A stretch of DNA of 22,909 nt from a virus. The translations under genes and the position numbers were made by a program. This document shows, piece after piece, positions 3,685-20,896 of the stretch. The notes beneath the pieces are model-generated. The model was not told the DNA's origin. It searched no databases and saw only the letters and a program-made list of their open reading frames with translations. The stretch is taken from positions 1 through 22,909 of the IMG/VR virus record IMGVR_UViG_3300017763_000216; one strand, written 5' to 3'. Positions within the stretch are counted from its first letter, which is position 1; the number at the start of each line of letters is the position of its first letter.

Positions 3685-4058
3685 TGAATTTAATTGAAAG
3701 AGCATTAGATATTTTAGAAGCTCCTCTTACGCCGATACAAAGACGTAAAAGAGGTATTCTTATGAAACGTCTCGCACCAAAGATCGCACGGAAAAGAAAG
3801 ATTGCGATGAGAAAAAAAGCTGGTGTAGAAAAAATACAATCACGCGCAAACAAGGCTGCGAGAGAATATATGCGCCAAATGTTTCTAAAGGGTAAGAGCT
3901 ATAGCGATTTGCCTTTTCAAGCAAGGGTAAATATAGATAAGAAAGTAGAAAAGAAAAAGACTTTAATGCAGAAATTAGCAAAAAGAATGATTCCTGCAAT
4001 GAGAAAAAAAGAAATTGAAAGATTAAAACAAGTTAGAAAAGCTAAAACAGATAAATAG
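3684..4058 (+). CDS. Very basic conserved phage protein
   Basis: The protein has 124 residues and is extremely rich in Lys and Arg throughout (for example QRRKRGILMKRLAPKIARKRK, AKRMIPAMRKKEIERLKQ). It is predicted to be mostly helical, with Met/Lys repeats and no cysteines. I recognise it as a type conserved in the structural region of marine T4-like phages, without a known function. The high positive charge suggests binding to nucleic acid or to an acidic scaffold, such as a head-internal protein; this is inference from composition only. The start forms a TAATG overlap with the coiled-coil membrane protein upstream. The stop lies four bases before the next ATG, and a late-promoter-like box overlaps its end. 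Confidence 0.75.
   Translation: MNLIERALDILEAPLTPIQRRKRGILMKRLAPKIARKRKIAMRKKAGVEKIQSRANKAAREYMRQMFLKGKSYSDLPFQARVNIDKKVEKKKTLMQKLAKRMIPAMRKKEIERLKQVRKAKTDK
4050..4057 (+). promoter_or_regulatory. Candidate T4-type late promoter box
   Basis: GATAAATA differs at one base from the T4 late consensus TATAAATA. The ATG of the next gene follows after five bases, so transcription starting at the usual distance would begin at that ATG. The box overlaps the last codons of the upstream gene, and AT-rich sequence produces such matches by chance, so this call is weak. Confidence 0.3.
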
Positions 4059-4062
4059 TATT

Positions 4063-4767
4063 ATGAATTTACAAGAAAATATTTTAAAAGTCCTTAATGA
4101 AGGCCTGGGTAAAACCAATAAACGTGATCAAGAATTTGCTGACCTTCATAAGACCCAAGTGGCCAACGACCCCGAACAGGACGATCCTAAAGCAGGTGAC
4201 AACGCACCCAAATCAAAAGTGCCAAAGGGCCAAGGAGCTAAAGGTGTAAAGATTACTGACGTAGAAGAATATGACGGTAAAAAAATAGACCCTAAGAAAC
4301 AGGACGATGTTAAAACAAAGAAAGACGCTGCTCCAAAAGGAAAAGGTCTTAAAGGATTTAAAGAAGCTTATAAATCTGGTGAGCTCGACGAGAAAAAACT
4401 CGATCCAGTAAATAAGAAGTCCGCATCAAAAGATTTTGACGACCGCAAAGATAAAGACATTGATAACGACGGCGACGTAGATAGCTCTGATAAGTATCTG
4501 CATAAAAGACGTAAAGCGATATCAAAGGCTACTAAAAAAGAAGCAGTAGACCCTGCTAAATTTGTTAAGGGCGGCGATCTTAAAGTAAAAAAAAATGATG
4601 TAGATTCAATGCTGTCTAAACTATTTGGAAATTCAAAATTAAGTAAAGAGGCAGAGAAGAATAAAGCTTATAAAGCAGGATACAAAGGCGGAAAAAATCC
4701 TTATAAAAAAGATACCGCGGACTTTCATTTGTTTATTCTAGGACAGCAGGCTAAGTCTGCAGAATAA
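4063..4767 (+). CDS. Acidic/basic repeat-rich protein with EF-hand-like loop and RMF-like tail
   Basis: The protein has 234 residues, is low in complexity and rich in Lys, Asp and Pro, and is probably extended or disordered over residues 1-125. Residues 132-143 (DIDNDGDVDSSD) place Asp at positions 1, 3, 5, 7, 9 and 12 of a calcium-binding loop, like an EF-hand or dockerin loop, followed by a helix (KYLHKRRKAISKA). The C-terminus (about 201-231, AYKAGYKGGKNPY...LFILGQQAK) has the spacing of a ribosome-modulation-factor-like motif (A-G-x-NPY-x-W/F-x-G-x-A), which is common in small phage proteins. Calcium binding is inferred from the loop. A role as a virion or assembly protein is suggested by location only. 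No Shine-Dalgarno sequence is visible. Confidence 0.75.
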   Translation: MNLQENILKVLNEGLGKTNKRDQEFADLHKTQVANDPEQDDPKAGDNAPKSKVPKGQGAKGVKITDVEEYDGKKIDPKKQDDVKTKKDAAPKGKGLKGFKEAYKSGELDEKKLDPVNKKSASKDFDDRKDKDIDNDGDVDSSDKYLHKRRKAISKATKKEAVDPAKFVKGGDLKVKKNDVDSMLSKLFGNSKLSKEAEKNKAYKAGYKGGKNPYKKDTADFHLFILGQQAKSAE

Positions 4768-4770
4768 ATA
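4763..4770 (+). promoter_or_regulatory. Candidate T4-type late promoter box
   Basis: AATAAATA matches seven of eight bases of the T4 late consensus. It lies across the upstream stop codon, five bases before the ATG at 4776, which is the same spacing as the box at 4050-4057. The start point predicted from T4 spacing coincides with the ATG. The sequence is also what a TAA stop in AT-rich DNA can look like, so confidence is low. Confidence 0.3.
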
Positions 4771-4775
4771 AACTT

Positions 4776-5138
4776 ATGTTTGCTGAACTAAATAATGACA
4801 ACTTTGAAATCTTCGCAGCTAAATATTATAGCAACCCAGCTTGTTTAACAGTCGAAGATTTTAAAGAAGACCTCGCGAGATTTAAATATATCAATCGTCT
4901 ACTTCGAAAGTATGACGATACTGGAGTAATTCAGTTACGATTGCTTTTAAATCACATTATTATATTATTCAATGTTTTTGAAATAAAAGCTGCGAATAGA
5001 ATGATATTTTACAGAATTGATGTTAAACATTGGAGCATCATAAAAACAATTTTACTATATTTAAATTTATTGCCACTGGGCGAAAAAAACGAAGTATACA
5101 CAGACCTTTATATTACTAAAAAATTAAAAGAAGTATGA
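4776..5138 (+). CDS. Conserved small T4-like phage protein
   Basis: The protein has 120 residues, is predicted all-helical and has many hydrophobic residues but no clear membrane segment (LRLLLNHIIILFNVFEIKAANRM in the middle, RIDVKHWSIIKTILLYLNLLPL later). I recognise the pattern (FAELNNDNFEIFAAKYYSNP near the start) as a family conserved in marine T4-like phages with no assigned function, possibly DUF7207 in Pfam terms, though I cannot check that. It sits between the EF-hand-like protein and another conserved protein, and its stop overlaps the next start as ATGA. No membrane or catalytic motif is evident. Confidence 0.8.
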   Translation: MFAELNNDNFEIFAAKYYSNPACLTVEDFKEDLARFKYINRLLRKYDDTGVIQLRLLLNHIIILFNVFEIKAANRMIFYRIDVKHWSIIKTILLYLNLLPLGEKNEVYTDLYITKKLKEV

Positions 5139-5698: not shown

Positions 5699-5988
5699 CG
5701 CCAAAGGAACAGATGACCAGTGGTGCAGTCGCGGTTCACGATAGACCGATGGCTCCACCAATAAAAAGAAAAAAATATAAGGACTTTGATGTGCCTTCAG
5801 AAGTATTTAATAAATTTGCTACTGGACGCAACAAGTTCGAAAGATGGTCAAAATATTTAAACCTCCAAGACGAAAATCAAAAGGCTATATACGACTACGC
5901 AAAGAAATCACGTAATTCTATTATTGTTCTGCGTAACTCCGACACCGGCGCTTTACGGGCAATTCGCCGTAAAGCATCAAACGAATAA
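5695..5988 (+). CDS. Conserved small basic phage protein
   Basis: The protein has 97 residues. It has a Pro-rich N-terminal tail (about 1-25), then a compact basic domain with KKYKDFDVPSEVFNKFATGRNKFERWSKYLNL and RNSIIVLRNSDTGALRAIRRK. The family looks conserved in marine T4-like phages, and no function is known to me. The C-terminal strands, with alternating hydrophobic and Arg/Lys residues, could bind nucleic acid. It is the last gene of the structural-type block: its stop codon lies inside the left arm of the terminator stem-loop. Its start overlaps the previous stop by four bases. Confidence 0.75.
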   Translation: MTPKEQMTSGAVAVHDRPMAPPIKRKKYKDFDVPSEVFNKFATGRNKFERWSKYLNLQDENQKAIYDYAKKSRNSIIVLRNSDTGALRAIRRKASNE

Positions 5989-6015
5989 AGAGAAAATTTC
6001 TCTTTATTTTGTTTT
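5985..6015 (+). terminator. Rho-independent-type terminator
   Basis: Two perfectly complementary 11-base arms (5985-5995, ATAAAGAGAAA, and 5997-6007, TTTCTCTTTAT) are separated by a single base, so the innermost pairs must open to form the loop. A T-rich tract (TTTTGTTTT) follows. The stem is AT-rich and so weak, but its position between the stop of one block and a strong promoter for the next fits a transcription boundary. Confidence 0.65.
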
Positions 6016-6041
6016 ACAATAACCCCTTAACAGTATATAAT
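6013..6041 (+). promoter_or_regulatory. Sigma70-type promoter for nrdB
   Basis: TTTACA (6013-6018, five of six consensus bases) and a perfect TATAAT (6036-6041) are separated by 17 bases. The expected start point is about 6048, one base before the nrdB ATG at 6049, so the mRNA would be leaderless or nearly so. The -35 box overlaps the T-tract of the upstream terminator. Confidence 0.75.
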
Positions 6042-6048
6042 AGTCTCT

Positions 6049-7023
6049 ATGATTTTCGAAGAACAAATAACGCGCAAGCCCGATAACTATCCTTGGACAG
6101 AAGAGTACATCTCTGCAATGCACAATGGATTTTGGACTGATAAAGAATTTAACTTTCAGTCAGATGTACAAGATTTCAAAGTAAATCTTAATGATCAAGA
6201 AAGAGAAATGGTCAAACGTTCTCTTTCTGCTATTGGTCAAATAGAAGTAGCCGTCAAAACTTTTTGGGCTAACCTTGGACAGAACTTACCACATCCGTCA
6301 ATTACAGACTTAGGATTTGTAATGGCTAATGTAGAAGTAATTCATAACAACGCTTATGAAAGATTACTTAAAGTACTTGACCTTGAAGATGTGTTTGAAG
6401 AAAACATGTCAATAGATATGATTCAAAATAGAATCAAATATCTTCGTAAGCACTTAAAGAAGTGTTATAAAGACGACAAGAAACAATACCTATACTCTCT
6501 TATATTGTTTACATTATATGTAGAGAATGTTTCATTGTTTGCACAATTCTATACTATCAATTACTTTAATCGCTTTCGTAACTATTTAAAAGATACTGCT
6601 CAGCAAGTAGCCTATACATCTAAAGAAGAAATGCTTCATGCACTGGTTGGTATTAAACTAGTTAATGTAATAAGAGAAGAGCATCCAGAGTTATTTGACG
6701 ACGAATTAGCAGACCGCATTCGTAGTTCGTGTCTTCAGGCCTTTGAAGCAGAATCAAATATAATTGAGTGGTCACTAAACGAATATGAGAGTGAACATCT
6801 TTCATCTGATATATTAAAAAACTTTATTAAGAATCGCTTAAATGATTCTTTAAAACAAATCGGATTCGATCCCGTCTTTGACGATGTTAACGAATCTCAA
6901 CTAGAACAAACTGTTTGGTTTGATGAAGATGTACTTGGTAATACGGCTACAGACTTTTTCTATAAACGCCCAACAGAATACTCAAAAAAAGATAAATCAT
7001 ACGACGAAGACGACTTATTTTAG
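6049..7023 (+). CDS. nrdB: Class I ribonucleotide reductase small subunit
   Basis: The 324-residue protein is the radical-generating beta subunit, which with NrdA converts ribonucleotides to deoxyribonucleotides for phage DNA synthesis in the host cytoplasm. The di-metal ligands can be placed by pattern: E66 (QIEVAVKTFW), E96 and H99 (VEVIHNNAY), E159 (LYVENVSLF), and E194 and H197 (EEMLH). The radical tyrosine is Y103, four residues after H99 as in E. coli (H118/Y122). The first ligand is Glu where E. coli NrdB has Asp84. The acidic C-terminal tail (YDEDDLF) fits the peptide that docks onto NrdA. The gene is first behind a strong promoter and precedes nrdA, the reverse of the common bacterial order. 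There is no Shine-Dalgarno sequence, and the transcript is probably leaderless. Confidence 0.95.
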   Translation: MIFEEQITRKPDNYPWTEEYISAMHNGFWTDKEFNFQSDVQDFKVNLNDQEREMVKRSLSAIGQIEVAVKTFWANLGQNLPHPSITDLGFVMANVEVIHNNAYERLLKVLDLEDVFEENMSIDMIQNRIKYLRKHLKKCYKDDKKQYLYSLILFTLYVENVSLFAQFYTINYFNRFRNYLKDTAQQVAYTSKEEMLHALVGIKLVNVIREEHPELFDDELADRIRSSCLQAFEAESNIIEWSLNEYESEHLSSDILKNFIKNRLNDSLKQIGFDPVFDDVNESQLEQTVWFDEDVLGNTATDFFYKRPTEYSKKDKSYDEDDLF

Positions 7024-7035
7024 AATAGATATATT

Positions 7036-8682
7036 ATGGAAAATTATTATTGGTTGAACGAGGATTCTCGCACATTCCTTGAAAGAGGCTATTTGTTAGA
7101 AGGCCAAAACGCAGAAGGCCGAATCCGCGAAATTGCAGAAGCTGCAGGTAAAGAATTAAATCAAAAGGACTTTGCAGATAAGTTCGAAGATTACATGAGC
7201 AAAGGGTGGTTTTCACTATCCTCGCCTATTTGGGCTAACTACGGTTTGGAACGAGGACTACCTATTTCTTGCTTTGGTTCATATGTCGATGACACTATGG
7301 AAGCAATTCTAACTAAGCAAGCCGAGGTTGGAATGATGACAAAGATGGGTGGCGGAACATCTGGCTACTTCGGAAATATAAGATCAAGAGGTACAGAAAT
7401 ATCTTCGGGTGGCAAATCAAACGGGCCCGTACACTTTATGGAATTGTTTGAAACAGTAACTAATGTTGTTTCACAATCGAATGTACGTCGAGGTTCTTTT
7501 GCAGCGTACTTACCAATTGACCATGACGATGTACTTGAGTTTCTTCAGATAAGAGGCGATGGTCACCCTATTCAAAACATGTCTATTGGTGTTACTATAA
7601 GCAATCAATGGATGTCAGATATGATTGATGGTGACAAAGAGAAACGCAAAGTTTGGGGTAAAGTAATTCAGAAAAGATTTGAAAGCGGTTATCCTTATAT
7701 CTTTTTTGAAGATACAATAAACAATAATGCGCCCGAAGTTTACCGAGACAAGGAGTTAAGAATCCACGCATCTAATCTTTGCTCAGAGATTGCACTACAC
7801 TCAAGTGATGATGAATCCTTTGTATGTAATCTGTCGTCAATGAACCTATTGCACTATGACGAATGGAAAGATTCTGACGCTGTTCAAGTACTTACTTCTT
7901 TCTTAGATGCTGTAATGACAGAGTTTATTCGAAAGACTACAGGTGTTCCTTATCTACAACCAGCAAGAAACTTTGCAAAGAGGCAAAGAGCTCTGGGTAT
8001 TGGCGTATTGGGCTGGCATTCTTATCTTCAGTCTAAATCAGTTTCGTTTGAATCGTTTGAAGCAAAACATCTAACTTCTGAGATATGGACTTTTATTAAG
8101 AAAGAATCGTATCACGCGTCAAGATGTTTAGCTGATGCATTTGGTGAGCCAGAACTGCTCGAAGGCTACGGAAGAAGAAATGTAACTACAATGGCTATCG
8201 CGCCTACTACATCTAGTTCGTTTATTCTCGGTCAAGTCTCGCCTTCGATTGAGCCACTAAACTCAAATTACTTTGTAAAAGATTTAGCAAAAGGCAAGTT
8301 TACATACAAGAACCCTTATTTAAAAGAAGTGTTATTACACCATAGTAAAGACACCAATGAAACATGGAAGTCTATTCTGGTCAATGGTGGTTCTGTTCAA
8401 CACCTAGACTTTTTATCAGATCACGAAAAAGAAGTATTTAAAACATTCGGTGAGATATCTCAAAAAGAAATTATTATTCAGACAGCAATCCGTCAAAAAC
8501 ATATTGACCAATCTCAAAGTGTTAACGTAATGATTCACCCATCAACTCCTGTAAAAGATGTAAATCAATTAATTATCTTTGCTTGGGAACAAGGTGTGAA
8601 AACATTGTATTATCACAGAGGTACAAATCCCTCTCAAGAACTCTCCCGTAATATTTTAAACTGTAGCTCCTGCGAAGCATGA
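7036..8682 (+). CDS. nrdA: Class I ribonucleotide reductase large (catalytic) subunit, no ATP cone
   Basis: The 548-residue protein is shorter than typical bacterial NrdA (about 760). It begins almost directly with the catalytic domain, so the N-terminal ATP cone that senses dATP is absent. Expected residues are present: redox Cys C79 (PISCFGS), the active-site set N247, C249 and E251 (SNLCSEIAL), the partner Cys C264 (VCNLSS), the radical-transfer pair Y525-Y526 (TLYYHRG), and a C-terminal CxxC (C543, C546) for re-reduction by a thioredoxin-like protein. The enzyme should therefore be active but not shut off by dATP, which suits phage replication. It lies 12 bases after nrdB and its stop overlaps a small zinc-ribbon gene by four bases. 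I see no intein or intron. Confidence 0.96.
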   Translation: MENYYWLNEDSRTFLERGYLLEGQNAEGRIREIAEAAGKELNQKDFADKFEDYMSKGWFSLSSPIWANYGLERGLPISCFGSYVDDTMEAILTKQAEVGMMTKMGGGTSGYFGNIRSRGTEISSGGKSNGPVHFMELFETVTNVVSQSNVRRGSFAAYLPIDHDDVLEFLQIRGDGHPIQNMSIGVTISNQWMSDMIDGDKEKRKVWGKVIQKRFESGYPYIFFEDTINNNAPEVYRDKELRIHASNLCSEIALHSSDDESFVCNLSSMNLLHYDEWKDSDAVQVLTSFLDAVMTEFIRKTTGVPYLQPARNFAKRQRALGIGVLGWHSYLQSKSVSFESFEAKHLTSEIWTFIKKESYHASRCLADAFGEPELLEGYGRRNVTTMAIAPTTSSSFILGQVSPSIEPLNSNYFVKDLAKGKFTYKNPYLKEVLLHHSKDTNETWKSILVNGGSVQHLDFLSDHEKEVFKTFGEISQKEIIIQTAIRQKHIDQSQSVNVMIHPSTPVKDVNQLIIFAWEQGVKTLYYHRGTNPSQELSRNILNCSSCEA

Positions 8683-9133: not shown

Positions 9134-9561
9134 TGTATACATATAAAGTAAAAGAAATAGTAAGAGTTGTTGACGGTGATACCGTTGACATATTAGTTGA
9201 TTTAGGATTTGGACTCACAAAAAAAGAGCGAGTTCGAGTAGCTGGAATTGACACACCCGAGTCTCGTACACGAGATTTGTATGAAAAGAAGCTTGGTAAA
9301 GAAGCTGCTGCATATCTCACAGAGCAACTCGAAGATGGTGATATTATCATCAGAACAGAAAAAGATGGTAAGTATGGTAGAATGCTAGGCTGGTTATATA
9401 AAGAAGGCCAAACAATATCTATTCAAGAAGATATGATTAATCGCGGATACGGTTGGGCATATGACGGTGGTAAGAAAGAAAAATCATACGAAGAGTTAAA
9501 AGAGAAAAGAATTGCTGATGGCTCTTGGATATCACAAGACCAGAGCGAGTTTGATCTATAA
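9133..9561 (+). CDS. Staphylococcal-nuclease-like (SNase) endonuclease
   Basis: The protein has 142 residues and resembles thermonuclease (OB-fold, calcium-dependent). Catalytic and metal residues can be matched: D14 and D16 (VDGDT), R36 (RVRVAG), D40, T41 and E43 (GIDTPESR), and R83 (KYGRMLGWLY), equivalent to D21, R35, D40, T41, E43 and R87 of the staphylococcal enzyme. There is no signal peptide, so it acts inside the cell, perhaps on host DNA or in nucleotide salvage for the adjacent reductase. I chose the ATG at 9133, which forms TAATG with the cupin stop; an in-frame ATG at 9103 would add ten Arg/Lys-rich residues inside the cupin gene. Confidence 0.92.
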   Translation: MYTYKVKEIVRVVDGDTVDILVDLGFGLTKKERVRVAGIDTPESRTRDLYEKKLGKEAAAYLTEQLEDGDIIIRTEKDGKYGRMLGWLYKEGQTISIQEDMINRGYGWAYDGGKKEKSYEELKEKRIADGSWISQDQSEFDL

Positions 9562-9564
9562 ATA
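9557..9564 (+). promoter_or_regulatory. Candidate T4-type late promoter box (perfect TATAAATA)
   Basis: A perfect TATAAATA overlaps the stop codon of the SNase gene, four bases before the GTG at 9569. T4 spacing would place the transcript start at about 9570, effectively on the start codon. The position is suggestive, but the genes around it look early or middle rather than late, so the call is weak. Confidence 0.35.
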
Positions 9565-9568
9565 ACTC

Positions 9569-9979
9569 GTGTGGTTATATAATGAAGAAGAGTTTACGAC
9601 AGAAGCTATTGCAGATAATGTTGGTTTCGTCTATGAAATATATGACAAACAAACGGAAATGCTCTATATTGGCAAAAAAAGGTTTTGGAGCAAAGTTTCA
9701 AAACCGCCGCTCAAGGGTCGTAAGAGACGAAGAAGGTCATTAAAAGAATCTGATTGGCAAGACTATTATGGGTCTAGCGAACAGGTAAAAACTCTTGTTG
9801 AAGAATCTGGTAAAGATAGATTTTCTCGTCGCATCCTTCGTTTGTGTAAAACACTAGGTGAAATGAGTTACTATGAAGCAAAGATACAATTCGAAACAGA
9901 CGCTTTACTTAAACCAGAAAAATATTATAACGCATTCATCGGTTGTAAAATTCATAGAAAGCATGTTTTTAAGGGTTGA
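9569..9979 (+). CDS. GIY-YIG-like phage endonuclease
   Basis: The protein has 136 residues. The GIY-YIG core is seen as GFVYEI (19-24) and YIGKKRF (33-39), followed by a basic loop (about 48-60), a DYYGSS segment (65-70), an Arg helix (FSRRILRLCK) and a conserved Glu near 103 (YYEAKIQFE), which is the usual metal-binding position. The protein ends with an NAF...HRKH tail. This matches small GIY-YIG proteins common in marine T4-like phages, often annotated as endonucleases. It may be a free-standing homing or DNA-processing nuclease, and no intron is seen nearby. The start is GTG at 9569, seven bases after the upstream stop; no better start is available in frame. Confidence 0.78.
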   Translation: MWLYNEEEFTTEAIADNVGFVYEIYDKQTEMLYIGKKRFWSKVSKPPLKGRKRRRRSLKESDWQDYYGSSEQVKTLVEESGKDRFSRRILRLCKTLGEMSYYEAKIQFETDALLKPEKYYNAFIGCKIHRKHVFKG

Positions 9980-10006
9980 CAATAGTTCAAAATAATATAG
10001 TATTAT
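9976..10006 (+). promoter_or_regulatory. Sigma70-type promoter candidate for rnh
   Basis: A perfect TTGACA (9976-9981) is followed by AT-rich -10 candidates: TAGTAT at 9998-10003 (16-base spacing) and TATTAT at 10001-10006 (19-base spacing). Neither is ideal. Either choice puts the transcript start at about 10010-10013, on the ATG at 10011, again suggesting a leaderless message. Confidence 0.5.
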
Positions 10007-10010
10007 ACTT

Positions 10011-10871
10011 ATGATACTACTAGACTACTCAGGTATTGCAGTTGCTGCAATTTTCTCACAAGACAGGCCCGAAGAAATTCAAGAGGGCTTAATTCGACAT
10101 ATGATTCTGAACACGATTCGTCGTTACAATGTTCAGCATCGTGATAAATTCGGTAAGATGGTAATTGCATGTGATGCTCATTCTTGGCGTAAAGAATACT
10201 TTGAGAATTACAAAGCTAAAAGAAAAACCACACGAGAAGAATCACCACTTGATTGGAAAGAGTTCTTTCGTCTAATTAATATGGTTCGTGAAGAGCTAGA
10301 AGACTATATGCCTTATCCTGTAATATATGCAGAAGGCGCAGAAGCTGACGATGTAATCGGAGTTCTAACAAAAGAAACACAAGACTTTGGAAAAGACGAA
10401 CCCGTTTTAATTATATCACCAGATAAAGACTTCTTGCAACTTCACAAATTCAAGAATGTAAAACAATTCAGTCCAATGAAACGCGATTTCATTACAGTTG
10501 AAGACCCACAAAAATATCTATTCGAACATATTTGTAAGGGTGATACAAGTGATGGTGTACCAAATATTCTTAGTGGTGATGATGTTTTTGTTGAAGGTAT
10601 TCGTCAAACACCTATGAGAAAAAAGAAGATCGAAGATTGGTACGAATGTCGTTGGGAGCTTGATCTGAATATGAGTGACGAAGAGAACCGAAACTTTGTA
10701 CGTAATCAAAAGCTAATTGATTTGGCATATACTCCACAAGAAATTGCGGATGACATTGTTAAGCAATTCAACGAGCAAAACGAAAAACCAAATAACAAAA
10801 TACTTAATTATTTAATTGAGAAAAGATGTGCAATGCTAGTAGAATCTGCCGCAGATTTTCAAACTAAATGA
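10011..10871 (+). CDS. rnh: RNase H / 5'-3' exonuclease of the T4 Rnh (FEN) family
   Basis: The protein has 286 residues, close to T4 RNase H (305). In T4 the enzyme removes RNA primers from lagging-strand fragments. The acidic residues of the FEN-family active site are visible: D5 (LLDYS), D55 (IACDAH), E111, D113 and D114 (AEADDVIGV), D138 and D140 (SPDKDFLQLH), and D178 and D181 in the helix-hairpin motif (KGDTSDGVPNI). The basic arch region (RKEYFENYKAKRKTTREE) resembles the T4 protein. It is the first gene of a run that includes an exonuclease further on, consistent with replication or recombination. The stop overlaps the next start as ATGA. Confidence 0.93.
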   Translation: MILLDYSGIAVAAIFSQDRPEEIQEGLIRHMILNTIRRYNVQHRDKFGKMVIACDAHSWRKEYFENYKAKRKTTREESPLDWKEFFRLINMVREELEDYMPYPVIYAEGAEADDVIGVLTKETQDFGKDEPVLIISPDKDFLQLHKFKNVKQFSPMKRDFITVEDPQKYLFEHICKGDTSDGVPNILSGDDVFVEGIRQTPMRKKKIEDWYECRWELDLNMSDEENRNFVRNQKLIDLAYTPQEIADDIVKQFNEQNEKPNNKILNYLIEKRCAMLVESAADFQTK

Positions 10872-12341: not shown

Positions 12342-12357
12342 TTGACAAATATGTCAA
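12342..12357. repeat. Inverted repeat over the -35 box (possible operator)
   Basis: TTGACA at 12342-12347 and TGTCAA at 12352-12357 form a perfect inverted repeat around the four bases AATA. It overlaps the -35 element, the position of many repressor sites, but the left arm is the -35 consensus itself, so the symmetry could be partly accidental. Confidence 0.4.
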
Positions 12358-12370
12358 TATGTGGTATAAT
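12342..12370 (+). promoter_or_regulatory. Perfect-consensus sigma70 promoter with extended -10
   Basis: TTGACA (12342-12347) and TATAAT (12365-12370) are both perfect and separated by 17 bases, and a TGG in front of the -10 box gives an extended -10 element. The expected start is about 12377, leaving a leader of about 12 bases before the ATG at 12389. It should be among the strongest host-polymerase promoters in the window and points to early expression of the small-gene set. Confidence 0.88.
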
Positions 12371-12388
12371 ATTATTATAAGATTGATT

Positions 12389-12661
12389 ATGACTAATAAT
12401 AAAAACTACCGCTATTCCACTTCCTATGTCGGCACATTTGACCACAGGGACGCCAATGATTTAGCTATCATTGATAACATTCGAAAAGCCCTAAAGGGTA
12501 CGAATCAAAGGCTATGCCTCAAAGGTCGATTGGGTAAAAACAACCCAAATCGTGATTACTATAAAGTCTCTGATCCATGGCACTGGCGTGCTACTCGCGG
12601 GTATCAGACTATTCTTCTCAAACACGCATCGCGAGTTGACGCTTATATTTATTCCAAATAA
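12389..12661 (+). CDS. Small unknown protein, first gene of the small-gene set
   Basis: The 90-residue basic protein is not recognised. I chose the ATG at 12389 because the in-frame ATG at 12359 lies upstream of the -10 box and could not be on this promoter's transcript. The sequence is rich in Asn, Tyr and Arg (KNYRYSTSYVGTFDHRD), with an aromatic segment YYKVSDPWHWRATRGYQ in the second half and a strand-like C-terminus (RVDAYIYSK). A basic, aromatic small protein behind a strong early-type promoter would fit a host-directed function such as binding nucleic acid or a host enzyme, but nothing in it proves this. Confidence 0.7.
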   Translation: MTNNKNYRYSTSYVGTFDHRDANDLAIIDNIRKALKGTNQRLCLKGRLGKNNPNRDYYKVSDPWHWRATRGYQTILLKHASRVDAYIYSK

Positions 12662-15288: not shown

Positions 15289-15364
<76 letters not shown>

Positions 15365-15369
15365 TTTTA

Positions 15370-15444
<75 letters not shown>

Positions 15445-15446
15445 TT

Positions 15447-15522
<76 letters not shown>

Positions 15523-15527
15523 TTTTT

Positions 15528-15604
15528 GCTCCGATAGCTCAGTTGGATAGAGCAACGGTTTTCTAAACCGTGGGTCGCAGGTTCGAGTCCTGCTCGGAGT
15601 ACCA
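15528..15604 (+). tRNA. tRNA-Arg (UCU)
   Basis: Acceptor GCTCCGA pairs with TCGGAGT. The D-arm has an extra base (TTGGATA), the anticodon loop is TTTCTAA (anticodon TCT), the T-arm is GCAGG/CCTGC, the discriminator is A and CCA is encoded. It reads AGA and AGG codons, which this genome uses heavily for Arg while many bacteria do not. Confidence 0.95.
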
Positions 15605-15613
15605 TTATTTGAT

Positions 15614-15621
15614 TATAAATA
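15614..15621 (+). promoter_or_regulatory. Candidate T4-type late promoter of the glycan cluster
   Basis: A perfect TATAAATA lies in the 23-base gap between the last tRNA and the ParB-like gene, outside any coding sequence. T4 spacing puts the transcript start at about 15627, one base before the ATG at 15628, so the message would be almost leaderless. Of the four such boxes listed, this is the best placed. Confidence 0.55.
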
Positions 15622-15627
15622 AAATAC

Positions 15628-16080
15628 ATGACAGCGTATGAAGAAAGTATTTTGAAATGTAAATTTCACGGAACAGCGTGGAATGGCTATAAAGTAACAC
15701 ACTTAGAAGTAAGTGAGCTTTGGGCGTCAGTTGTAAAAGCAGAAATGCTTAGAGGTAAAAGCTTTTTTGCAAAGGTGAAAGAAGATATTCAAAAAAATGG
15801 TCTTCACTTTCCTCTTATTGTTGTTGATACACCAAGACGTAATCTAATAGAACAGAAGAGCAGGTACGGAGACAAGTTAAAACCTTTGCCATTTGATCTA
15901 AAGCGCGATGATTTAAATGTTAGACAATATACTGTGTGGGGTGGTTCAAATAGATGGTACGCTGCGCATGAATTAGGATTTAAGTATGTAGATTGTATAG
16001 TTGTACCTAATGCAGATTTTAACAAAGCTCGATCTATGCAAGCAATGCACAGAGCACCTTACAGAGGACAACTATACTAA
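15628..16080 (+). CDS. ParB/sulfiredoxin-fold domain protein
   Basis: The protein has 150 residues. The segment VKEDIQKNGLHFPLIVVD (about 50-70) and VWGGSNRWYAAHELGFKYVDCIVVPN (about 108-133) match the two conserved boxes of the ParB N-terminal fold, including the G-x-x-R-x-x-A-A pattern that in ParB binds nucleotide phosphates. The central segment is Arg/Lys-rich. There is no helix-turn-helix DNA-binding domain, so it is not a partition protein. Known relatives of the fold include CTPases, kinases and nucleases. It starts a gene run behind a late-type box and overlaps the first glycosyltransferase by one base, which suggests it serves the same pathway or is simply carried with it. Confidence 0.8.
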   Translation: MTAYEESILKCKFHGTAWNGYKVTHLEVSELWASVVKAEMLRGKSFFAKVKEDIQKNGLHFPLIVVDTPRRNLIEQKSRYGDKLKPLPFDLKRDDLNVRQYTVWGGSNRWYAAHELGFKYVDCIVVPNADFNKARSMQAMHRAPYRGQLY

Positions 16081-16859: not shown

Positions 16860-17450
16860 ATGAACGATAAAATTAGAGTATTCATAGCAACAGATGGAGA
16901 TATACATTCTGATGCTGAAAAAGTAATCGAGCATTCGATTAAGAAAAACACAAATGAAGAAGTTGAAATAAACTTTATTAGACCTGGTTATAAAAATGGA
17001 TGTACCGGATTTACAAATCATAGGTATCTAATACCAGAGTTATGTAACTACGAAGGTTACGCAATTTACTTTGATGTTGATATGTTAGTACTAGGTGACT
17101 TACGTGAATTGTGGGAATATAAAAAAGAAGGCAAATGGGTAACAACACCACACCGTGATGATGTAAGTGTTATTGATTGCGCTGCCTTTAAAGGTATAAT
17201 ACCTACTAAAAACACTTTAATGAATATGAAAAAGCCTGCGCTGATGCGGATGTTGCAAAATAAGACAGTTTCAAATATTCCTATTCAATGGAATACGTGT
17301 GATAAAATAACAAGTGATGCTAAACTCATACACTATACTGATTTATCTACACAACCTTGGCACCCAATTCCAGGCAAAAAGTATAAAGAGCACAAAAATC
17401 AAGACGCAGTAAATTTATTTTTCGAGTACTTGAATGAAGCAAGTGTTTGA
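16860..17450 (+). CDS. GT-A glycosyltransferase, GT8-like
   Basis: The protein has 196 residues. It begins with a strand IRVFIATDGD, has a conserved HRYLIPELCNYEGYAIYFD segment and carries the metal-binding DxD at D72-V-D74 (FDVDMLVLGDL). The C-terminal LIHYTDLSTQPWHP contains the His expected for a second metal contact in GT8-type enzymes. It should transfer a sugar from a nucleotide-sugar, retaining its configuration. It is shorter than many GT8 proteins (over 250) but complete in motifs. Its 3' end overlaps the next gene by 17 bases. The ATG is six bases after the upstream stop, with no Shine-Dalgarno sequence. Confidence 0.8.
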   Translation: MNDKIRVFIATDGDIHSDAEKVIEHSIKKNTNEEVEINFIRPGYKNGCTGFTNHRYLIPELCNYEGYAIYFDVDMLVLGDLRELWEYKKEGKWVTTPHRDDVSVIDCAAFKGIIPTKNTLMNMKKPALMRMLQNKTVSNIPIQWNTCDKITSDAKLIHYTDLSTQPWHPIPGKKYKEHKNQDAVNLFFEYLNEASV

Positions 17451-18117
17451 TAATATAAAAATAGAGGGTGAAATGCCTCTTGGTCCTGTAGTTATGGCTG
17501 CGTGTGATTCTATATATTTTAAAGAACACGCGACTGCACTAATTAACTCTGCAAATAAGATTGGAAAAGATATTCATATTCATGTAGTAAACCCAACACA
17601 AACTCTACGTGCTCCGCAAAACTTAAATATTAACGTTACATTTTCGTATCATAAAGCTAAACAGAATAGCAGAGAGTATTATAGCTGTATACGATTTATG
17701 ATAGCAAAAGAAATATTAAAGCATTCAAAAAAGCTATTAATAGTAGATGTAGATTCTATATTTAAAAACACTTTTGAGTGGCCTAAAACCAATTATGGAT
17801 ATTTTCCTAGAGAACATAAAATGCGTGAATTACAAGTAGCGGCTGGGTGTGTATATTTTCAAGAGGCTGCCATTGAGACATTGCCTCAGCTAGAAAATAA
17901 AATAGCCTCTTTACCGCTGAAATGGTATATTGACCAAAAAGCACTAGAGTGGTATTTTCGAAACGTTATAAAAGACTCTATTACTTACTTTGATGATAAA
18001 TTTATGGACTGGGAGTTTAAAAATAATACAGTTCTTTGGACTGGCAAAGGCAAGAGGAAAAAAAGAAACGTTACATATTTAAATGCTAAAAAAGAATGTG
18101 AAAAGATTAATACATGA
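17434..18117 (+). CDS. GT-A glycosyltransferase-like protein
   Basis: The protein has 227 residues. A first strand (PVVMAACDSIYF) is followed by a helix (HATALINSANKIG), a strand (IHIHVVNP), a conserved YSCIRFMIAKEIL helix, and the DxD at D105-V-D107 (KLLIVDVDSIF). The middle has GCVYFQEAA and a WYIDQKALEW segment, as in GT-A acceptor regions; the end is basic (WTGKGKRKKRN), which could hold a pyrophosphate or a charged acceptor. I infer a sugar transferase; donor and acceptor are unknown. I chose the ATG at 17434, which overlaps the previous gene by 17 bases; the next in-frame Met is residue 14. The stop overlaps the next start as ATGA. Confidence 0.75.
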   Translation: MKQVFDNIKIEGEMPLGPVVMAACDSIYFKEHATALINSANKIGKDIHIHVVNPTQTLRAPQNLNINVTFSYHKAKQNSREYYSCIRFMIAKEILKHSKKLLIVDVDSIFKNTFEWPKTNYGYFPREHKMRELQVAAGCVYFQEAAIETLPQLENKIASLPLKWYIDQKALEWYFRNVIKDSITYFDDKFMDWEFKNNTVLWTGKGKRKKRNVTYLNAKKECEKINT

Positions 18118-18854
18118 ATTTAGTTTATCAATATTATTTACCATACCCTGGTGAGATTGGAAAACCAGATTGGGTTGAAATTGGTAAAAAATCAGCAGAA
18201 AAATACTCTAAAGAAATCGGCGCTGAATATATCTATTCAGAAGAAAAATATATGAACTCAGTATTAAATGTGTTTGAGTCATTTAGATTATTTTTTGATG
18301 AGTCATTTGATTGTTATGATAAAATTTTATTATTAGACATAGATACAATTGTTAACACAAAGGATAATATTTTTGATATTGAAATAGAAGACGTTGGAAT
18401 GGTGCATGAATTAGGTGTATATAATAGATCAGCCGTACCTGGCGCTACCTTTACACCAAAATTTTGGGATAATTATTTTAATAATCCACATACTGGAGTT
18501 TCTAGTTATGCTAAAAAGTTTTTAGACGAAAAATTTAAATGGAAAAAAAGTAAACTATATCCAAACGAAAAGTTTGCTTTATACAACGGAGGTGTACAAG
18601 TGTGGTCAAAAGAAGGCAGGATAAAAGCACGATCACTGTTTGATTCTAAAAAGCACGATCATTTTCACAAAGAGACGCGAAAAGGCGAAACCGCGTATTT
18701 GAATATGATGTTTTTTCACCATGGATTTAAAATAACGGAATTGGAAAACGATTGGAACCGTTTAAATTTTCAATGGAGCGAAAACAATCACTTTGGTAAA
18801 ATAACGCATTTTAATGATATAATAAAAGATAAGATGTATAATCATGGCAAATAA
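18114..18854 (+). CDS. GT-A glycosyltransferase, first tandem paralog
   Basis: The protein has 246 residues. It opens NLVYQYYLPY, carries DWVEIGKKSAEKYSKEIG, an ESFRLFFDE helix, and the DxD at D75-I-D77 (KILLLDIDTIV). The acceptor half has PNEKFALYNGGVQVWSKEG and an ETAYLNMMF...ELENDWNRLNF segment. It aligns along its length with the next gene but has about twenty extra residues after the IEDVGMVHELG motif. The DxD, the NGGV motif and the end strands are typical of GT8/GT-A folds. The DNA here is more AT-rich than neighbouring blocks. It overlaps both neighbours (ATGA at the start, 11 bases at the end). Confidence 0.8.
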   Translation: MNLVYQYYLPYPGEIGKPDWVEIGKKSAEKYSKEIGAEYIYSEEKYMNSVLNVFESFRLFFDESFDCYDKILLLDIDTIVNTKDNIFDIEIEDVGMVHELGVYNRSAVPGATFTPKFWDNYFNNPHTGVSSYAKKFLDEKFKWKKSKLYPNEKFALYNGGVQVWSKEGRIKARSLFDSKKHDHFHKETRKGETAYLNMMFFHHGFKITELENDWNRLNFQWSENNHFGKITHFNDIIKDKMYNHGK

Positions 18855-19524
18855 TTTAATATATCAATATTTTTTACCGTACGGTGGGCCAATGAAAAGC
18901 ACAACCGATTGGGCTGACTTAGGCGTAGAATCAGCTAAAAAATATGCGAAGACCATCGGCGTAAAATATGAATTCTCTAATAAAGCCACAATGAATGCGC
19001 CAAATCAAAATTTGGAATCGTGCAGAATATTTTTAGATGATTATTTTAATCAATTTGATAAAGTGTTGTTGTTAGATGTTGATATCTTAATTAATACAAC
19101 AGAAAATATTTTTGATGAAGACGTAGAAGACATCGGAATGGTGCAAGATAGAACTAAAGGCGCGTTCGTAGAAAATATTATTTCTAAAATGGAATCTTAT
19201 GGTAACATAACATTTGTTAATTCGAAATCTTGTCCAAATGAAAAGAGATATTGCAATGGTGGAGTTCAACTTTGGTCAAAAGAAGGTAGACTTAAAGCAA
19301 GAGAAAAATTTGGTGGGTTACCAGAAATTTATCGATATAGAGAAGCAACTAAAATGAATGAGCAACCTTATATAAATTTAATGTTTAATCTACACGATAT
19401 TAAGGTTACAGAACTTTCTAATCAATGGAATAGAATGTATTTTATGTGGAAGAATAATAAACCTGATGGTAAATTTAATCACTTTTTAGCATTACACAAA
19501 AACAGGATGAAAGAATACGTATGA
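18844..19524 (+). CDS. GT-A glycosyltransferase, second tandem paralog
   Basis: The protein has 226 residues and is a diverged copy of the gene before it: NLIYQYFLPY, DWADLGVESAKKYAKTIG, an ESCRIFLDD helix, the DxD at D78-V-D80 (KVLLLDVDILI), NIFDEDVEDIGMVQD, CNGGVQLWSKEGRLKAREKF, and VTELSNQWNRMYFMW line up in the same order. It lacks the insert present after the DVGM motif in the first copy, so substrate pockets may differ. The pair looks like a local duplication followed by divergence, giving two transferases that may act in sequence on the same glycan. It overlaps the previous gene by 11 bases and the next by four. Confidence 0.8.
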   Translation: MANNLIYQYFLPYGGPMKSTTDWADLGVESAKKYAKTIGVKYEFSNKATMNAPNQNLESCRIFLDDYFNQFDKVLLLDVDILINTTENIFDEDVEDIGMVQDRTKGAFVENIISKMESYGNITFVNSKSCPNEKRYCNGGVQLWSKEGRLKAREKFGGLPEIYRYREATKMNEQPYINLMFNLHDIKVTELSNQWNRMYFMWKNNKPDGKFNHFLALHKNRMKEYV

Positions 19525-20201
19525 GATTATATAGAATATTTGATGCACTCGGTGATAGTATTATATTACTAACTTATTTTCAAAAGTATGATATAAAAAC
19601 TGTTTATTATAATCGTGGTAAATTTGAAAGACTAACTTTATTATCAAACTATTTAAATATATCATTACCAAATTTTGTAAAAGTTAATGAGAAAATTGAA
19701 ACTGATATGATAGATGTATTGGTACAACTTACAAAGGATAATGTCAATCTCATTTCTTTTAATAATAACGCAGAAAAAGGAGATTATCAAACGACGCAGG
19801 TTGGTTCAAAATGGACAGCGTCTTCAGATAGAAACATAACAAAAGAAGAGACTCAAGAATATTTAACGCATGCATTAGTAAAAGACGTATCTATTGCAAC
19901 AACAATTGGTGATATTATAAAATTACTTTCATCATCACAAAAACATGTTTCAATGGATTCTGGCACTGCCTGGTTATCTGCCGCTCTTGGTATAGATACG
20001 ATTGTTATTTCGAAAAATAGTTATTATTGGCATGAAGCATATTATTATATGAGATATTTGAGTATACAGAAGAGCGTACAAAACATTTATCCAAAGATAA
20101 AAAAAGCAACTGAAAAAGAGTTTAATAATGCATTGGTAAATAATAATGTTTCAGAACCGTATTCTTATGAAACATATTTAAATAAAATTAAAAAACTATG
20201 A
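19521..20201 (+). CDS. GT9-like (heptosyltransferase-type) protein
   Basis: The protein has 226 residues. The start MRLYRIFDALGDSIILLTYF resembles the N-terminal strand and GD loop of GT9 enzymes. The late segment HVSMDSGTAWLSAALGIDTIVISK matches the donor-site core (DSGxxHLAxALG) of ADP-heptose:LPS heptosyltransferases, with W in place of the usual His. It is much shorter than typical GT9 members (around 330-350 residues), with a reduced middle region. Donor sugar and activity are therefore uncertain; a degenerate or accessory transferase is possible. Its coding DNA is strongly AT-rich. The ATGA overlap at both ends suggests coupling. Confidence 0.65.
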   Translation: MRLYRIFDALGDSIILLTYFQKYDIKTVYYNRGKFERLTLLSNYLNISLPNFVKVNEKIETDMIDVLVQLTKDNVNLISFNNNAEKGDYQTTQVGSKWTASSDRNITKEETQEYLTHALVKDVSIATTIGDIIKLLSSSQKHVSMDSGTAWLSAALGIDTIVISKNSYYWHEAYYYMRYLSIQKSVQNIYPKIKKATEKEFNNALVNNNVSEPYSYETYLNKIKKL

Positions 20202-20896
20202 AAGCGTTTATCATTTATATAAAAAATCACGAAGGCTCTACTGCTACTGCTAATTTAACTCTTGAGAGCTGTGAAAAACATGGGTATTCTGCAGAATTAT
20301 ATGAAGGTATAACGCCATCGACATTATCTGCATGGGAAGAAAAATACAAATTAGAAAATAAAGTTTTAAACCCAAGTCACATGTATGATAGACAAATTGG
20401 TATTAATGGTTCTGAATTTACGTATCAATGTAAATATTCTAATTTTCTAAATCATTATACTCTTTGGAATAAATGCGTAGAGTTAGATGAAACGATTGTA
20501 ATACTCGAACACGACGCTTTAGCGGTTAGCGAATGGAAAAATCCTAAGTTTGATGAACTATTAGTTTTAAATGTTAGAAGTGGTTTATATGGAGAAGAAC
20601 TGGATAAGCTCAGAAAACCAGAACTTTATAAGGGTGTTCACGATTATAAAAATAAATATTTGAACTATAAAGCAAAAAATATTTGGTTTGATGCTGGCAT
20701 GATACCTGGCACTGCTTCATACGCGATTAGTCCAAAGGGTGCTAAAAGACTTATAAATAACATTGAAAAATGCGGGTGGGATAAAGCAGACTATATTGTG
20801 AATAATAAATCTGTACATATGCAATATATACAGCCTGATTATTTTCATTTTTCACATCACATAATAAAAAATCAAAGAACAAGTCACGGAGAATAA
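20198..20896 (+). CDS. GT25-like glycosyltransferase
   Basis: The protein has 232 residues. The layout fits GT25 enzymes (LPS side-chain beta-transferases and relatives): strand MKAFIIYIKN, ESCEKHGYSAELYEGITP, then CKYSNFLNHYTLWNKCVELDETIVILEHDA, where E104-H105-D106 stands at the usual ExD site (a His replaces the middle Asp), and later GTASYAISPKGAKRLINNI, the typical C-terminal acceptor motif. I infer transfer of galactose or glucose to a growing glycan. The end of the gene carries a GGAG four bases before the next ATG, one of the few Shine-Dalgarno sequences in the window. Confidence 0.82.
   Translation: MKAFIIYIKNHEGSTATANLTLESCEKHGYSAELYEGITPSTLSAWEEKYKLENKVLNPSHMYDRQIGINGSEFTYQCKYSNFLNHYTLWNKCVELDETIVILEHDALAVSEWKNPKFDELLVLNVRSGLYGEELDKLRKPELYKGVHDYKNKYLNYKAKNIWFDAGMIPGTASYAISPKGAKRLINNIEKCGWDKADYIVNNKSVHMQYIQPDYFHFSHHIIKNQRTSHGE

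Follow-up and report, generated by a model that had tools for sequence, protein, structure and literature searches.

Does transcription of nrdB in this viral DNA start at the start codon itself, so that the message would lack a leader? The question concerns a 22,909-base IMG/VR virus record, which was analyzed as a whole and is called the window here. A sequence-only reading of the locus had described TTTACA, 17 bases, TATAAT, and an ATG seven bases past the -10 box. That description is exact, as coordinates 6013 to 6051 show. The site has the following features.

5984 to 6008, plus strand: terminator-like palindrome, near-perfect and AT-rich, with a T-rich tract behind it (self match and folding)
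6013 to 6018, plus strand: -35 hexamer TTTACA of the nrdB promoter, 17-base spacer to the -10 hexamer
6036 to 6041, plus strand: -10 hexamer TATAAT of the nrdB promoter; the hexamer pair matches the consensus at 11 of 12 positions
6042 to 6048, plus strand: discriminator AGTCTCT, the 7 bases from the -10 box to the ATG; expected +1 at 6048 or 6049
6049 to 7023, plus strand: nrdB, ribonucleotide reductase small subunit, 324 aa, N terminus MIFEEQ (PF00268, phrog_86)
7036 to 8682, plus strand: nrdA, 3' of nrdB, without a visible SD (homology match)

The nrdB ATG occupies positions 6049 to 6051, and the product was classified as a class I RNR small subunit (PF00268, E = 3.7e-49; phrog_86, E = 3.2e-61). 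Alignment of relatives revealed that the MIFEEQ N terminus agrees with that of the homologues. With a spacer of 17 (within 16 to 18 bp) and 11 of 12 matches, the hexamers form a promoter of the sigma70 type. Inspection of the upstream sequence revealed no SD-like word before the nrdB ATG, as at leaderless genes of the bacterial type. Transcription from sigma70 promoters starts most often at the 7th or 8th base after the -10 box, which here is 6048 or 6049. RNA polymerase favors a purine as the starting base, and T, the base at 6048, is a poor initiator. The earlier placement of +1 at 6048 is possible, but the purine preference makes A6049, the A of the ATG, the likelier start. Either position would give a message without a ribosome-binding leader, as had been proposed, and the sequence and the comparison with relatives both favor a start on the AUG or one base before it.

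The hexamers by themselves are weak evidence for a promoter, because the expectation from shuffled sequence lies near the observed count. Three promoters with at least 11 of 12 matches were found in the window against 1.25 after dinucleotide shuffling (both strands, 40 shuffles, maximum 4), and a weaker scan of the window revealed 88 against 74.4 +/- 9.6 expected. What lifts the nrdB promoter beyond chance is its position and its conservation in relatives. This matters for the alternative that the -10/-35 pair is a chance AT-rich match near a start codon and no promoter, which gains from the 1.25 such matches expected per window and from the A/T richness near the ATG in the upstream regions of the window's clade.

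The palindrome at 5984 to 6008 overlaps the stop codon of the upstream gene (5986 to 5988) and separates that gene from the nrdB promoter. The segment from 5975 to 6020 gave a folding energy of -12.1 kcal/mol (z = -5.05). Because of this terminator-like hairpin, a separate transcription unit seems to begin with nrdB. If the hairpin stops upstream transcription, most nrdB mRNA should come from the promoter at 6013 to 6041, and nrdA would be read from the same transcript. The hairpin directly upstream of the promoter thereby speaks against a second alternative, in which longer read-through mRNAs are the main templates for nrdB translation by SD-less internal initiation, the promoter is minor, and its distance to the ATG is accidental. 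Most genes in the window are packed in SD-less operons and are necessarily translated without SD, which fits read-through.

SD usage was determined with one mechanical gene caller and four-base SD words, for loci of at least 7 kb and at least 8 genes; the caller takes ATG starts only, so that GTG and TTG genes are missed. In the window, four-base SD words preceded 5 of 41 genes, against 5.0 in shuffles, and no five-base SD word was found before any of the 41. SD motifs are therefore not above chance in the window. The same caller found SD words before 46 of 73 genes in T4, 41 of 72 in HTVC008M, and 50 of 82 in Melnitz. In base composition, G peaks at -8 to -12 in the SD-using set but not in the SD-less sets. 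SD usage was intermediate in some relatives with about 80% NrdB identity (L022, 7/20; L024, 9/26), and in the later-fetched parts of the 128-kb record G014, SD words preceded 27 of 129 genes against 14.1 after shuffling. L022, L024, and L037 differ strongly in SD usage from L005 to L010, although their NrdB is about 80% identical to that of the window; this contrast may reflect host switches. A phage-borne bS21, a possible SD modifier, had no match in the 15 viral records G000 to G014, which are mostly fragments; it was found in HTVC008M and Melnitz.

A scan of viral contigs for NrdB yielded 80 loci. In 15 of these viral relatives (L003 to L008, L012 to L014, L016, L017, L021, L023, L044, and L064), a -35/-10 pair ends 7 to 9 bases before the nrdB ATG, and the spacer and discriminator sequences differ. 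The TTTACA -35 hexamer also stands before nrdB in L005 to L008, L012 to L014, L016, L017, L021, L023, L044, and L064. The other 65 relatives do not have the leaderless layout at nrdB. Eight close relatives (L009 to L011, L015, L020, and L025 to L027) carry TATAAT about 26 to 29 bases before the nrdB ATG and no SD. These SD-less nrdB leaders of about 20 bases are compatible with read-through and indicate that nrdB does not need leaderlessness. Clear SD leaders at nrdB were found in a separate clade (e.g., L040, L045, and L058), and other relatives have longer leaders. A tree of 66 distinct NrdB proteins requires 5 changes of the leaderless label, at least 3 of them forced by well-supported branches, which indicates that the leaderless state was gained or lost repeatedly or that upstream regions were exchanged.

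The distance between promoter and ATG was then compared over many genes. Promoters before genes were scored as sigma70-like at 10 or more of 12 matches with a spacer of 16 to 18, and the gap was counted from the end of the -10 box to the ATG. The sets were close SD-less (A), intermediate (P), far SD-less (B), and SD-using (C) loci, plus isolate phages. Sets A, P, B, and C were defined after the nrdB alignment and the SD census had been seen, so the held-out regions are the independent test. With hand-picked near copies and short loci omitted (L003, L004, L049, L070, L073, L075, L076, L077, and L080) and near-copies within the sets removed only in part, a gap of 6 to 9 was found at 16 of 41 promoters in set A (293 genes), against 1.5 in dinucleotide-shuffled sequence. 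The corresponding numbers were 8 of 40 against 0.3 in set P, 8 of 22 against 0.6 in set B, 3 of 20 against 1.1 in set C (all three at rnh), and 2 of 31 against 0.8 in the isolates. Column permutation (100 permutations), which preserves positional composition, gave 2.27 (maximum 6) for the 16 of set A, and sets A, P, and B each exceeded all 100 permutations. No early peak above the column-permutation maximum was found in set C (3 against a maximum of 4) or in the isolates (2 against 4). A half-swap control for set A gave 5.6 with a maximum of 10, still below the observed 16. In the held-out regions, which were fetched after the pattern had been seen, 18 of 30 promoters (344 genes) had a gap of 6 to 9, against 0.86 expected by column permutation. 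Totals with the held-out loci were 22/53 in A, 9/42 in P, 18/37 in B, and 3/20 in C (52/152 together); nine isolate phages gave 4/41. A merged histogram of A, P, and B (131 promoters; L012, L014, L057, and set C also omitted) contained no gap of 4 to 5, 49 gaps of 6 to 9, and a single gap of 10.

The excess over column permutation in set A and over expectation in the held-out regions, and the retention of the same hexamers in relatives despite different spacers, argue so strongly against a chance match that we give it hardly any probability. Nearly empty gaps of 4 to 5 and 10 are unlike an accident of distance, and the peak at 6 to 9 returns both in 25 gene families and in the held-out regions; translation mainly from read-through mRNAs is accordingly judged unlikely. 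The spread of the gaps from 6 to 9 bears on a third alternative, in which the layout is real and the host polymerase starts nearer to the -10 box, 2 to 5 bases before the AUG, leaving a leader of a few bases. CAGA before the ATG, which is kept in some genes of set B, points the same way, and gaps of 8 to 9 may mean a leader of 1 to 3 bases. At nrdB, the commonest sigma70 start falls on 6048/6049, and the T at 6048 is poor for initiation, which makes such a short leader very unlikely there.

The nrdB layout had been taken as something exceptional at a much-needed enzyme. This view is not supported: the genes of the window show no SD signal overall, dozens of early and late promoters in relatives are placed alike, and the RNase H gene of the window has the same layout.

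9976 to 9981, plus strand: -35 hexamer TTGACA of the second leaderless-type promoter, that of the RNase H gene (promoter scan)
9998 to 10003, plus strand: -10 hexamer TAGTAT, 16-bp spacer, 7 bases before the ATG at 10011 (promoter scan)
10011 to 10871, plus strand: homologue of T4 rnh (RNase H/5' exonuclease), 286 aa (homology)

At least one case was found in each of 25 early and 24 late gene families. Beyond the window, where its gap is 7, rnh has the layout in L063, L066, L068, L069, L074, L079, and L081, and a gap of 21 in L005, L006, and L064. The promoter scan revealed a gap of 7 before the gp43 DNA polymerase gene in G001 and C48C1; gaps of 7 in G014 and 8 in G009 were read by eye. UvsX has the layout in G001, G009, and G014 and lacks the early layout in L100 and L111, and the sliding clamp and clamp loader genes of G001 also carry it. 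Core replication genes with the layout in some records thus comprise those for DNA polymerase, clamp, clamp loader, UvsX, RNase H, and NrdB, and at rnh, gp43, and UvsX the layout reaches distant records. Primase has it in the SD-using C48C1 and Melnitz. Leaderless-type promoters in these SD-using records lie at 20001 and 23401 in L115 (C48C1) and at 16015 in L085 (Melnitz), before DNA polymerase and primase genes; Melnitz is a phage with a named cultured host.

A T4 late promoter consists of an 8-bp TATA box (TATAAATA) located roughly one helical turn upstream of the start, as described in the available part of PMC2988020. Such boxes were found next to start codons in the window.

4050 to 4057, plus strand: GATAAATA, late box with one mismatch, 5 bases before the ATG at 4063
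4763 to 4770, plus strand: AATAAATA, late box with one mismatch, 5 bases before the ATG at 4776
9557 to 9564, plus strand: TATAAATA, exact, 4 bases before the GTG at 9569
15614 to 15621, plus strand: TATAAATA, T4-late-type box, 6 bases before the ATG at 15628 (exact match)

In sets A, P, B, and C together, exact TATAAATA lies 5 to 9 bases before the ATG of 61 of 1378 genes, against 1.96 expected. By set, there were 14, 18, 15, and 14 genes (column-permutation expectation, 0.78, 0.51, 0.42, and 0.25), and the isolates gave 1 of 439. In the family of the gene starting at ATG 4776, 21 of 46 members have an exact late box at this distance. Unlike SD loss, the late layout is common to the SD-using set C. 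The late sigma gp55 is present in G009 and G014, the two largest viral records. Exact late boxes 10 to 44 bases upstream were also above chance in every set (13, 22, 17, and 11 genes in A, P, B, and C, against 2.6, 1.6, 0.9, and 1.1 expected), which indicates that not all late genes are leaderless. In a 49-kb stretch of T4, 4 of 4 exact late boxes lie 17 to 34 bases upstream of the ATG. The nrdB arrangement had also been called unusual for a T4-like phage; this is right in comparison with T4 itself, but within the present lineage the arrangement is ordinary. In relatives, the homologue of the gene at GTG 9569 (MWSYKGEE...) has an ATG 5 bases past the late box; the GTG is possibly a leaderless GUG start or the result of a small sequence change.

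The layout, the depletion of SD motifs, the positional peaks over the controls, and the recurrence in many families and in held-out sequence were observed directly. It is highly probable that 6013 to 6051 is a sigma70-type promoter that starts transcription at the nrdB AUG or one base upstream and so yields a leaderless mRNA, and that this site is one instance of a layout common to the lineage; the leaderless reading of nrdB is well supported at the sequence level. A ribosome, probably 70S, would bind the 5'-terminal AUG together with initiator tRNA and without SD pairing. The available text of a review describes 5'-AUG binding by 70S for leaderless mRNAs (PMC9031893), and translation of such mRNAs was measured in Caulobacter according to the part of PMC4117421 used here. 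Across the lineage, sigma70-like early promoters and T4-late-type promoters would be fused to start codons, and the genomes of the window's clade appear to have lost SD motifs, possibly in connection with host translation. In the T4-like lineage as a whole, many messages probably lack the ribosome-binding leader that is otherwise usual. More tentatively, and with less than even probability in our judgment, this may amount to a lineage-wide leaderless program, in which core replication genes and many late genes have +1 on the AUG, messages are taken up by 70S ribosomes independently of SD both early and late, autoregulation through leaders (compare T4 gene 43) is absent, and phage messages are possibly favored over host mRNAs. 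Leaderless mRNA would presumably cost nothing in SD-poor hosts.

The window contains one T4-type core gene, rnh; the other core genes of this phage presumably lie outside the 22.9 kb and are taken from relatives. The sister record G001 encodes gp43, UvsX, a replicative helicase, a sliding clamp, a clamp loader, and an SbcC-like protein. A scan of genome contigs yielded 7 MAG loci with 63 to 76% identity, five of them in Bacteroidota bins, one in a Verrucomicrobiales bin, and one in a Lokiarchaeota bin. The nearest isolates are mostly alphaproteobacterial phages by NrdB, and C48C1 and cyanophages by DNA polymerase. Host assignment from bins or isolates was dropped because these lines point to different hosts and binning gives weak evidence for phage contigs. 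A Bacteroidota host, attractive as an explanation of SD loss, was set aside because TTTACA/TATAAT is not known to be the promoter type of Bacteroidota.

Several further features were seen. A second promoter type with an SD-free short leader consists of TATAAT, about 6 bases, ATAAGATTRATT or ATAAGATTGAGAAAG..., and ATG. Its leaders are nearly identical, and they occur at 12342 to 12391 in the window, 19826 in L006, 17909 in L008, 10562 and 10880 in L013, 8222 in L016, and 2057 and 4358 in L098, before different genes, including those for peptidase-like and ATPase-like proteins. The repeated leader is possibly an alternative translation signal or a regulatory signal. In L095 (Caulobacter phage Cr30, 593 to 644), RNase H homology begins at a non-ATG codon 51 bases before the start given in the annotation, which may be misplaced. 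At 15289 to 15604, the window carries a group of four tRNA genes (Thr-TGT, Asn-GTT, Lys-TTT, and Arg-TCT). Consecutive, overlapping or abutting genes of similar size (about 226 to 246 aa) at 17434 to 20896, beside glycosyltransferase-like genes, are possibly paralogues.

T4 is the textbook model for leader-based translational control (RegA, gp32, and gp43 operators). If the present reading is true, a lineage that fuses promoters to AUGs, with SD lost in part of the tree, would show such control to be dispensable, and phage gene callers that rely on SD would misplace starts. Among the relatives, the same gene occurs naturally both with a leader and without one, and the layout opens a way to ask whether phages gain preferred access to ribosomes through leaderless mRNAs. 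Leaderless genes, the signature of a -10 box next to the open reading frame in bacteria (PMC3160421, PMC12340547), and leaderless phage mRNAs are already known. In the literature covered, which is incomplete, we met no account of leaderless early and late promoters running through a whole lineage of T4-like phages. Leaderlessness in phages is in itself not a new idea, since the available text of PMC5312081 remarks that phage transcripts are often leaderless.

In bacterial leaderless genes, as far as the available texts go, a Pribnow box adjoins the start codon (Zheng et al. 2011, PMC3160421), and a -10 motif marks leaderless genes in Deinococcus (PMC12340547). They share with the present layout a -10 box about 12 bases upstream of the start codon, the lack of SD, and an AUG expected at the 5' end; the first T of the nrdB box, 6036, lies 13 bases before ATG 6049, close to the roughly 12 bp given in PMC3160421. 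Those genes are chromosomal, whereas here a T4-like phage lineage carries full -35/-10 pairs and, in addition, a fused late-type promoter. Caulobacter crescentus has 375 leaderless mRNAs (9.6% of CDSs), and 75.4% of its genes lack SD, according to the available part of PMC4117421. It resembles the present lineage in being SD-poor with many leaderless messages, which are here predicted from sequence; there, a bacterial genome was measured by RNA-seq and ribosome profiling. Lambda cI mRNA is leaderless (PMC3160421 and PMC9031893, in the parts available) and, as predicted here, is a phage mRNA starting at AUG; it is one repressor transcript of a temperate phage, whereas the present layout is repeated over replication and late genes. 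T4 shares homologous genes (gene 43, rnh, and late genes) and the TATAAATA late box with the present lineage but has its late boxes farther upstream, as given above, and uses SD. The autoregulatory operator of T4 gene 43 lies about 40 bases upstream of the AUG (PMC3014915, available part), so a leaderless gene 43 has no space for it. Among Kyanoviridae records, gp43 of C48C1 is preceded by TTGACA-17-TATAAT-7-ATG and its primase has a gap of 6, the primase of Melnitz has a gap of 7, and gp43 of HTVC008M has a gap of 12 (read by eye). These three differ from the present lineage in that they are SD-using genomes in which few promoters have the layout.
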